Positions 32,884 to 36,568 of a stretch of 53,401 nt of DNA are shown piece after piece. The notes beneath the pieces are model-generated. The model saw only the letters and a list, made by a program, of their open reading frames with translations, made no database searches and was not told the origin of the DNA. How positions within the stretch are numbered: the first letter of the stretch is position 1; each line of letters begins with the position of its first letter. A program made the position numbers and the translations under genes. The stretch comes from Deltaproteobacteria bacterium (GTDB lineage Bacteria; Myxococcota; Myxococcia; Myxococcales; 40CM-4-68-19): assembly GCA_025358085.1 (NCBI GenBank), contig JANYKT010000148.1:1-53401 (forward strand), read 5' to 3'.

Positions 32884-32912
32884 TTGCATCTGTGACCCGG
32901 CTTTTCTAGGGT
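32884..32912 (+). promoter_or_regulatory. Predicted sigma-70 promoter of the PpiD-like gene
   Basis: TTGCAT at 32884-32889 and TAGGGT at 32907-32912 are separated by 17 bp, in the 113-bp gap between divergent mreC and the chaperone gene. The -10 element overlaps an in-frame GTG at 32911, which supports the downstream ATG at 32947 as the start. Match to consensus is only moderate. Confidence 0.35.
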
Positions 32913-32946
32913 GTCAACCCTTCAAAATGCCGGGAGTGTTTCGCTC

Positions 32947-34554
32947 ATGCTCGATGTCATGCGGTCGAACGCGAAGTCGTCGCTCATCGTCGTCGTTTTT
33001 GGCGCCATCATTGTCTCGTTCGTCTTCTCCTTCGGGCGTGGCTCGTCGGGCTTCCGCACCCGCACGCCCGAGACTTGGGCCGCTCGCGTGAATGGCGACC
33101 TCGTCACCGCCGGAGACTTCACCCAGGCCTACGCCTCGCGCTTCCGGCAGGCGTCCGCGCAGCGCGGGGGCAAGTACACGACCGAGCAAGCGCAGCAGGA
33201 CGGACTCAAGAAGGAGACGCTCAAGTCGCTGGTCGACCAGGAGCTGATTGCCCAGCAGGCGACCGAGCTTGGCATCGTGGTCAGCGACACGGAGGTGGCC
33301 GACGCAATCGCCAAGTCGCCCCAGTTCCAGCAGGAGGGCAAGTTCGACTTCGATTATTACAAGCGGCTGGTCGAAAACGGCTACGGGATGTCCGTGCCGC
33401 GCTTTGAAGACGCCTACCGGCGGGACCTGCTGCGCGCGAAAGTGATTCAGGCTGCCCTCGCCGGCGCGAACGTCAGCGACGACGAACTGCGTGCGTTCTA
33501 CCAGTCGCAGCACGAAGGCGCGGCCATCTCTTATGTGAAGTTCACCGGCTTCATGTTCCGCGAAAAGGCGATGGCCACCGACGTCGACGCTGACGTCTGG
33601 GCGAAGACGCACGAAAAGGAGATCGCGGACCAGTATGAGAAGGACAAGAAGACCCGCTGGACGCAGGCAGCGGCGGTCAAGGTGCGCGCAATCACCGCCA
33701 AGCTGGCTCCGGGCGCGAAGCCTGACGAGGAGACCGCGGCGCGTGCTCGCATCGACGGCGCTTACGCCGAGGTGAAGGGCGGCAAGGATTTCGCCGCGGT
33801 TGCGAAGGAGAAGAGCGACGACGTCGCCACCAAGGACCAGGGCGGCGACCTGGGATTCGTCTCCAAGGGCGGATCTGCCTACGGGAAAACGCTGGAGGAC
33901 GAGGCTTTGAAATTGAAGGTGGGAAAGTTGTCCGAAGTCTTCAAGGACCGGACCGGCTTCCATTTCCTCAAGGCTGATGAAGAGCGGGCCGCCAAGGAGC
34001 AGCCGCTCGCGGAAGTCAGGCAGCAGATCGCCCAGGACCTGGTGAAGGGCGAGAAAGCGAAGCAGCTCGCGCACGAAAAAGCAGTCGAGACGCTGGCGCA
34101 GATAAAGAGCGGCAAGGATCTCAAGGAACTCTTTCCGGCCAAGAAGGCCGATGCAGGCCAGTTCGACTTCTCGTCCTTCATGACGCCGCAGTCCGCCGAG
34201 ACCGAGACTTTCCACCCGGCGGGAGGGTTCATCCCGGGAATCGGCTCGGCCCCGAAGCTTTCCGAAGCCGTGTTCGCACAGACCAGCGCGGGGGCTACGC
34301 CGGCCGCGCCGATCGAGGACGGCGACACCTGGTACGTCTTCAAGCTCAAGTCGCGGGAGCGGGCGGACCTCTCGAAGTTCGACGAGACTGAAAAGAAGAC
34401 GGCGCGCGACCGCCTCGAGGGACAGAAGCAAGGCGAGCTGTACTCGCAGTGGATCGAGCGGCTGCGCAAGGGCGCGACCGTGGTGGAGAATGACACCCTG
34501 CTCAATTACCAGACGGGCTCCGAGCAGCAGAATTACAACCCGGACGATTACTAG
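32947..34554 (+). CDS. SurA/PpiD-type membrane-anchored peptidyl-prolyl isomerase chaperone
   Basis: A 535-residue protein. One N-terminal membrane helix (SSLIVVVFGAIIVSFVFSF) anchors it in the inner membrane, facing the periplasm; a SurA_N-type helical domain follows (VNGDLVTAGDFTQAYASRFRQ, QELIAQQATELGIVVSDTEVADAI). A parvulin-like rotamase domain at about 245-355 shows AVAKEKSDD...GGDLGFVSKGGSAYGK and FKDRTGFHFLKADE. The family folds newly exported proteins at the translocon. The frame also contains an upstream GTG at 32911, rejected on promoter grounds. A second gene (VOC) follows after 6 bp. Confidence 0.9.
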   Translation: MLDVMRSNAKSSLIVVVFGAIIVSFVFSFGRGSSGFRTRTPETWAARVNGDLVTAGDFTQAYASRFRQASAQRGGKYTTEQAQQDGLKKETLKSLVDQELIAQQATELGIVVSDTEVADAIAKSPQFQQEGKFDFDYYKRLVENGYGMSVPRFEDAYRRDLLRAKVIQAALAGANVSDDELRAFYQSQHEGAAISYVKFTGFMFREKAMATDVDADVWAKTHEKEIADQYEKDKKTRWTQAAAVKVRAITAKLAPGAKPDEETAARARIDGAYAEVKGGKDFAAVAKEKSDDVATKDQGGDLGFVSKGGSAYGKTLEDEALKLKVGKLSEVFKDRTGFHFLKADEERAAKEQPLAEVRQQIAQDLVKGEKAKQLAHEKAVETLAQIKSGKDLKELFPAKKADAGQFDFSSFMTPQSAETETFHPAGGFIPGIGSAPKLSEAVFAQTSAGATPAAPIEDGDTWYVFKLKSRERADLSKFDETEKKTARDRLEGQKQGELYSQWIERLRKGATVVENDTLLNYQTGSEQQNYNPDDY

Positions 34555-34560
34555 GCCCGC

Positions 34561-34992
34561 ATGGACGCGCGGCTGACCATCGTCACGCTGGGTGTCGAAA
34601 ACCTCGAGCGCGCACTGCGCTTTTATCGCGATGGGCTCGGCTGGAAGGTATCGAGTGCGTCGCAGGGTGACATCGCTTTCCTGAAATTGTCCGGCGTGGT
34701 GCTCGCGCTCTATCCCCGCACGCTCTTGGCGAGCGATGCCAATCTGCCTGCTTTGGGCCGTGCCCCGTTCGGCGGCATGACGCTGGCGCAGAACGTTCGC
34801 GAAGCGCGACAGGTGGATGAGGGCCTGCTGGCTGCGGAGGCAGCGGGAGCGCGTATCCTGCGGCCTGCCAAGGACGCCGAGTGGGGCGGACGGTCGGGAT
34901 ACTTCGCCGATCCCGACGGCCATCCCTGGGAGATCGCCTGGCACCCGTATTTTGAATTCGATCAGAACGGCGCGCTGGTCCTGCCTGACTGA
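34561..34992 (+). CDS. VOC (glyoxalase/bleomycin-resistance) family protein
   Basis: A 143-residue protein of the vicinal-oxygen-chelate fold with two beta-alpha-beta-beta-beta modules. The first begins LTIVTLGVENLERALRFYRDGLGW and the second ends in YFADPDGHPWEIAWHP, a typical family signature where Glu would be a metal ligand. Proteins with this architecture range from lactoylglutathione lyases to resistance proteins and dioxygenases, so the reaction is not assigned. It lies between the PpiD-like gene (6 bp away) and the selenoprotein gene (47 bp away), all in one direction. Confidence 0.8.
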   Translation: MDARLTIVTLGVENLERALRFYRDGLGWKVSSASQGDIAFLKLSGVVLALYPRTLLASDANLPALGRAPFGGMTLAQNVREARQVDEGLLAAEAAGARILRPAKDAEWGGRSGYFADPDGHPWEIAWHPYFEFDQNGALVLPD

Positions 34993-35039: not shown

Positions 35040-35609
35040 ATGCCAAAGATCAACCCAGCCCTCGCCGCGCTGTCGCTGCGCGATGCCGAAGACCGGCCCG
35101 TGCTCCTGGAAAGTCTTTGGAAAGAGAGTCCGGCGGTGCTGGTTTTCATCCGCCACTATGGGTGAGCGTCCTGCCGCGAGCAGGTGGCCGAGTTGCGGCC
35201 ACGAGCGAAAGACTTTGAAAGCGCGGGCGGGCGACTTGCGGTCATCGGCAGTGGCTGGCCGGCGATGGCGAAGACTTTTGCCGAGCGCACCGGGTTGCCA
35301 GCTTCAATGCAGCTTCTTTGCGACCCGAAGCTGGAATCATTCAAGCTCCTGGGACTGCATCGCTCGGTGCTGCTGACGCTGAATCCGTTTGCGGCGGTGT
35401 TGTGGGTCCGCGCGCTGCTGAAGGGTCACCGACAGGGCAAGCAGGCCGGAGACAACTTTCAACAGGGCGGCGCGCTGGTGGTCGCCCGCGGTGGCGAAGT
35501 CATCTTCCGCTCGGCCAGCCTCATTCCTGGCCACCATCCGTCGCCGGCGAAGCTCCTTCGCGCGCTGACTTCCGCACGCCCCGCGCAGGCTCTACTGCTG
35601 CCCCCCTGA
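35040..35609 (+). CDS. Selenocysteine-containing AhpC/TSA_2 (PRXL2/SelU-like) thioredoxin-fold protein, internal UGA = Sec42
   Basis: A 189-residue protein if the in-frame TGA at 35163-35165 is read as selenocysteine. Upstream sequence (LLESLWKESPAVLVFIRHYG) and downstream sequence (ASCREQVAELRPRAKDF, then GGRLAVIGSG) are the contiguous halves of one thioredoxin fold in one frame; the redox motif becomes U-A-S-C (Sec42, Cys45), precisely where cysteine homologues have CxxC in FIRHFGCxxCREQ. A bacterial SECIS-like hairpin follows (35184-35202). The protein continues with LLCDPKLESFKLLGLHRSV and a GGALVVARGGEVIFRS strand pair. ATG at 35040 is the only ATG/GTG/TTG in the frame after the preceding stop; no good ribosome-binding site is seen. 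An ordinary gene caller would split or truncate it at UGA. Confidence 0.88.
35184..35202 (+). promoter_or_regulatory. Bacterial SECIS-like hairpin for UGA at 35163
   Basis: A 7-bp perfect stem (GTGGCCG with CGGCCAC) closes a 5-nt loop AGTTG. The loop has G at its second position followed by U, and 26 nt separate the UGA from that G. Published bacterial SECIS models ask for a short upper stem, a G among the first loop bases and a UGA-to-G distance of roughly 16-37 nt, all of which are met. The hairpin lies inside the coding sequence, as in other bacteria, where SelB binds it. Confidence 0.72.
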
Positions 35610-35926: not shown

Positions 35927-36568
35927 ATGAACCCAAGTTCAAAAACAGCACCTGTCGTTTCGAGCGGCAACCCGCTGCGCGAGCGCTTGCGAGCCGAGAC
36001 TGCTCGCTCGATTGTCGGCGCGGCCGAGAAGGTGTTCGCGGCCCAAGGTGTCAACGCAGCCCGGATGGACGACATCGCCAGCGAGGCCGGCGTCTCGGTC
36101 GGCACCGTGTACAACCATTTCGAGGACCGTGAGTCGCTGCTCAATGGGCTGCTCGCCACCCGCCGCGCGGAGCTGGTCGCGAACCTCGACGCCGCACTCG
36201 AAGCAGGCGGCGGCGAGCCCTTCCCCTTCATGCTCGAACGCTTTACCTCGACCCTCCTCGAGCATTTCGAATCCCATCGGCCGTTTTTCAGCATTGTCAT
36301 TGAGGGCGAGCACCGGCGCGGCTTTCCCGCCACCGGCCGGGGCAACGACGCCATGCTCGAGGTCTACCAGCGCGTGGAGCATCTGATGACTCGCGGCCTG
36401 CGCAAGAAAGCGCTCCGCTCGCAGGGAGCCGAACTGTGGCCCGCGCTCTTCATGGGCGCCGTCCGCGGAGCCATGGTGCACAGCCTCTACGACAAGTCAC
36501 CCGCGCGCCCGCTGGCCGAGCGCGCCCCCGACCTGGTCCGCTTTTTCCTCGACGGCGCGGGGGCCTGA
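35927..36568 (+). CDS. TetR/AcrR-family transcriptional repressor
   Basis: A 213-residue regulator. The N-terminal helix-turn-helix spans about residues 20-65: SIVGAAEKVFAAQGVNAARMDDIASEAGVSVGTVYNHFEDRESLL, with the typical TVYNHF recognition helix. The C-terminal ligand-binding half is helical (AALEAGGGEPFPFMLERFTSTLLEHFESHRPFFSIVIEGEHRRG). It heads an operon with an MFS pump and HlyD adaptor, so it likely senses a substrate of the pump. Its start codon lies within the second palindromic operator. Confidence 0.93.
   Translation: MNPSSKTAPVVSSGNPLRERLRAETARSIVGAAEKVFAAQGVNAARMDDIASEAGVSVGTVYNHFEDRESLLNGLLATRRAELVANLDAALEAGGGEPFPFMLERFTSTLLEHFESHRPFFSIVIEGEHRRGFPATGRGNDAMLEVYQRVEHLMTRGLRKKALRSQGAELWPALFMGAVRGAMVHSLYDKSPARPLAERAPDLVRFFLDGAGA
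35928..35941. promoter_or_regulatory. Predicted TetR operator 2 over the start codon (TGAAC-ccaa-GTTCA)
   Basis: A perfect 5-4-5 inverted repeat beginning at the T of the tetR ATG. Its centre is 66 bp from that of operator 1. Both share the TGA...TCA ends and a 14-bp length, though the inner bases differ. Confidence 0.4.

Follow-up and report, generated by a model that had tools for sequence, protein, structure and literature searches.

A UGA-containing AhpC-TSA_2 gene of Myxococcota very probably encodes a UxxC selenoprotein

In the 53,401-nucleotide stretch of DNA that we analysed (the window), a gene at 35040-35609 (plus strand, as are all features of the window given here) carries an in-frame TGA at codon 42 (35163-35165) that, from its sequence context and conservation, is very probably read as selenocysteine (Sec), with a probability of roughly 0.96. 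The 189-residue product, counting Sec42, would be a single-domain peroxiredoxin-like oxidoreductase of the AhpC-TSA_2 family related to PRXL2 and SelL, and we are only slightly less confident of this assignment and the Sec decoding taken jointly. The predicted Sec42 opens a U-A-S-C motif, and the codon at 35172-35174 supplies Cys45, the putative resolving cysteine of UxxC.

A conserved reading frame across an in-frame UGA

The frame runs from ATG at 35040 through the TGA to a TGA stop at 35607-35609, exactly as originally predicted; also as predicted, a standard gene caller truncates the gene, returning a 141-residue open reading frame from GTG at 35184 to 35609. Such gene calling would split or truncate the enzyme, making it easily missed or misannotated in Myxococcota. 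GC content by codon position is similar upstream and downstream of the TGA at 35163. The product matched PF13911 (AhpC-TSA_2) at 4.9e-15 over residues 52-157, its 56.3 bits lying above the gathering cut-off of 27, and PF00578 at 6e-9 over residues 10-108, with codon 42 inside the match. That the TGA lies within one protein is therefore upheld: both halves match one family and the codon recurs in relatives (a homologue occurs in 21 class genomes, 19 of which have the TGA), which makes the in-frame TGA more than a chance occurrence.

These 21 homologue-bearing genomes came from a class-wide profile search of 147; at the UGA column, the remaining two have a Cys codon (G090) and a deletion of the codon (G022). 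The 19 Sec forms have 36-60% protein identity, the half downstream of the TGA being well conserved. Same-family orthologues in G001, G002, G005, G006 and G010 (51-60% identity) have TGA at the identical codon, in the motif U-A-[SLH]-C. Elsewhere the codon is TGY: C-x-x-C stands at this column in homologues from Planctomycetota, Bdellovibrionota, Chlorobiota, Desulfobulbus and some other Myxococcales, so that, on aligning the residues around position 42, cysteine falls in the same column as originally expected. R38, H39, G41, U/C42 and C45 are invariant among 28 aligned sequences. This pattern of UGA and Cys indicates Sec/Cys exchange; neither stop-codon decay nor sequencing error would produce it. 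The tree requires five Sec/Cys changes and has many open forks, so we drew no count of gains or losses from it. Scanning a wider contig set with the single protein recovered no relative; a later profile scan did find relatives, and as one of its two patterns held a Cys codon, it favoured Cys forms and its ratio of Sec to Cys is not a frequency. With 19 Sec forms, closely related Cys forms and a form that has lost the codon by deletion, the set allows gain and loss of Sec to be compared cleanly in a single active site.

Two of the homologues have unusual structures. Compared with the G014 gene, that of G022 (L096) has a 9-base in-frame deletion that removes the TGA and two neighbouring codons (U-x-x) and leaves the second Cys alone, an odd route of selenocysteine loss. 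In G145 (L093), the frame is open for approximately 258 residues ahead of the UGA, which may reflect an N-terminal fusion or just an open frame in GC-rich DNA.

A predicted SECIS hairpin and the Sec-insertion machinery

The original prediction had not sought a SECIS element; we found a predicted bacterial SECIS hairpin at 35184-35202, 25 nt after the UGA. A 7-bp stem (35184-35190 with 35196-35202) closes the apical loop AGUUG (35191-35195), values that lie within published constraints for bacterial SECIS elements: an apical loop of 3-9 nt with G in the first two positions, a distance of 16-37 nt from the UGA and a stem of at least 4 bp (PMC13188914). Minimum free energy folds of 18 of the 19 Sec genes have a 3-5 nt apical loop 25-26 nt past the UGA with G within its first two positions; the exception is L090, whose best fold differs. 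Mean fold energy was -21.5 kcal/mol for Sec genes (n = 19) versus -11.1 kcal/mol for Cys genes (n = 22), a comparison that is confounded when taken alone because the Cys set includes some AT-rich genomes; the fixed stem gives a fairer comparison, with 85% of Sec cells paired versus 40% of Cys cells.

Covariation was counted across 16 Sec genes, omitting L085, L090 and L093 for their poor fit to the exact stem register (the predicted stems of L085 and L093 are displaced by one base). Among these 16, 97.1% of cells were paired and nine changes were two-sided; none of 500 shuffles scored as high for pairing, two-sided changes or covariation, and slid registers were all less than 60% paired. Folded as a single sequence, the window hairpin has an unexceptional energy (z -1.42), and Rfam has no family match at 35184-35202. 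Nearly all Sec genes, then, carry a bacterial-type SECIS hairpin, and the Cys genes are without the stem.

The window genome, a draft assembly of 217 contigs that is 98% complete, encodes SelA (9.5e-109), SelB (7.4e-84; approximately 656 residues with an intact C-terminal part, from a gene ending in TGA) and SelD (1.3e-109). The Sec system originally predicted elsewhere in the genome is thus present in these three proteins, and tRNA-Sec was not recovered from the draft by Rfam, a family covariance model, BLAST with a relative's tRNA-Sec or pattern searches, the two covariance searches each scoring only 150 candidates. Nor did ARAGORN find tRNA-Sec near selA, selB and selD, or a synteny-guided search on contig 26. 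The sole Rfam match over threshold was a tRNA-Leu, and matches to the family model were tRNA-Ser, tRNA-Leu and tRNA-Lys. ARAGORN found tRNA-Sec with anticodon TCA in five same-family genomes (G002, G005, G006, G007 and G010), that of G005 also by Rfam at 70.2 bits. Mean column identity among these five, from sister genera, is 96%, and from such high conservation we would expect BLAST to detect the gene; the simplest reading is that tRNA-Sec is likely missing through an assembly gap. SelA is held by 17 of the 19 genomes with the Sec gene and by 130 of the 147 class genomes; since it is nearly universal in the class, its co-occurrence is uninformative. The selD gene (L010; G000:C203:11625-12554) is a selenoprotein gene itself; its UGA, at locus position 1531, lies within the motif HGAGUACK and is followed by a predicted hairpin.

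Cysteine in the same column, the three Sec proteins and the hairpin together support the reading of the UGA as selenocysteine, and the other explanations have to be weighed against them. The TGA might be a true stop, either in a decayed gene or between two short genes of which the second starts from GTG 35184, and indeed the standard caller prints exactly those two open reading frames and tRNA-Sec was not found in the assembly; we nevertheless regard this as very improbable, because the TGA has been kept in 19 genomes at 36-60% protein identity, with the downstream half well conserved, because cysteine occupies its column elsewhere, and because the downstream hairpin covaries. Moreover, the SECIS stem begins with GTG 35184, and a product initiated at this codon would be without both active-site residues. 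A genome-wide assignment of UGA to an amino acid other than Sec, such as the Trp of code 4, would equally leave the frame open; however, TGA is the terminal stop codon of the selenoprotein gene, of most of its close relatives and of selB, the homologue column holds Cys and never Trp, and the Sec pathway is present, which reduces this explanation to a negligible chance. An error in sequencing or assembly that turned TGC or TGT into TGA is no more credible: the assembly is a draft of many contigs, but the identical codon occurs in other assemblies from several families.

Active site, proposed mechanism and genomic neighbourhood

The structure model of the selenoprotein has a pLDDT of 95.1, and in it U42 directly precedes the first long helix (residues 43-61), the active-site position of peroxiredoxins and thioredoxins. 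The best structural match was 9usa, human PGFS C44S/C47S (Z 21.7, rmsd 1.8 over 159 residues, 26% identity); a sequence-profile search likewise ranked human prostamide/PGF synthase first among solved relatives (1.5e-23), and the C44 and C47 of this enzyme, both mutated in 9usa, align with U42 and C45.

A mechanism can be proposed on this basis. The bacterial SelA/SelB/SelD system, steered by the hairpin at 35184-35202, would insert selenocysteine at the UGA at 35163; the Sec42 selenolate would then attack a peroxide or disulfide substrate, Cys45 would resolve Sec42 through a selenenylsulfide, and the enzyme may be re-reduced by thioredoxin or another cellular thiol, as is thought for the CxxC of the human synthase. 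We consider this selenenylsulfide thiol-oxidoreductase mechanism reasonably probable, its substrate and recycling partner being inferred; activity is best read as that of a selenol-disulfide reductase or peroxidase. The same genome encodes a distant peroxiredoxin-like paralogue (L031; G000:C26:70886-71194) with Ser-Ala-Val-Cys (HESAVC) in place of UxxC.

Upstream of the selenoprotein gene lies a gene for a SurA/PpiD-like periplasmic peptidyl-prolyl isomerase (32911-34554), a neighbour conserved in the family; between the two sits a gene for a VOC/glyoxalase-family protein (34561-34992), which had no match among the relative loci searched. Downstream is a TetR regulator (35927-36568), conserved in two relatives in which TetR and MFS genes follow the selenoprotein gene, together with HlyD in one. 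In all five same-family relatives examined (L065 and L097-L100 among the loci), the isomerase gene is directly upstream of the selenoprotein gene, nearly abutting it in some, and this linkage suggests that the selenoprotein might mainly partner the isomerase in oxidative folding or thiol repair rather than act as a peroxidase. We think this unlikely, however: no such linkage was seen in the short flanks searched in more distant genomes, and PpiD acts outside the inner membrane, while the selenoprotein sequence has, on inspection, no obvious signal peptide. Less likely than not is a broader picture in which the Myxococcota proteins form a UxxC subfamily of AhpC-TSA_2 distinct from UxxS, old in the class and with occasional reversion to Cys or deletion of Sec, whose role, through the PpiD neighbour, could lie in envelope folding.

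Comparison with known redox proteins

Human prostamide/prostaglandin F synthase (PRXL2B, of the SelU3 subfamily) resembles the window protein in fold and profile but has Cys where Sec is predicted here. Prostaglandins would be unexpected substrates in this bacterium, and the substrate probably differs from that of the human enzyme. The name 'SelU-like' in the original prediction is loosely right in that this best solved relative, PRXL2B, has been named SelU3 (PMC3473315), but among curated bacterial models it is NCBIfam NF040769, 'SelL-related redox protein', that comes nearest. Each of the 28 aligned homologues matches that model at some level; the window protein does so at an E-value of 2.4e-30 over 165 residues, its 105.4 bits falling below the curated cut-off of 120.

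Selenoprotein L, known from fish and invertebrates, has two Sec residues two positions apart (PMC3316567, PMC3473315) and has been described as Prx-like (PMC2398784). It is thus likewise a Prx-like protein with Sec in a redox motif, but has two Sec residues (UxxU) and a eukaryotic SECIS, in contrast to the one Sec, one Cys and bacterial SECIS predicted here; all Sec homologues have Cys, not Sec, at the second motif position. Prx-like selenoproteins of PF00578 (UxxC or UxxU) have the UxxC motif and a peroxiredoxin-like fold in common with the window protein but belong to another Pfam family, the window protein scoring best with PF13911. For the PRXL2, SelU and SelL proteins of animals, which are poorly understood, this bacterial enzyme offers a simple model.

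An AhpC-TSA_2 selenoprotein has been listed with the motif UxxS (PMC9312934) and is repeated under cd02970 (PMC13188914). This listed AhpC/TSA selenoprotein (pfam13911/cd02970) shares with ours the Pfam family and a Sec that opens an xx-spaced redox motif; compared by listed motif alone, it is a UxxS form without the resolving Cys, whereas the form described here is UxxC in all 19 genomes. We found no description of the UxxC form in Myxococcota in the openly available papers. The window gene is, in sum, a well supported bacterial selenoprotein gene of a Pfam family that is already listed, from which it departs by the modest motif difference of UxxC versus UxxS.
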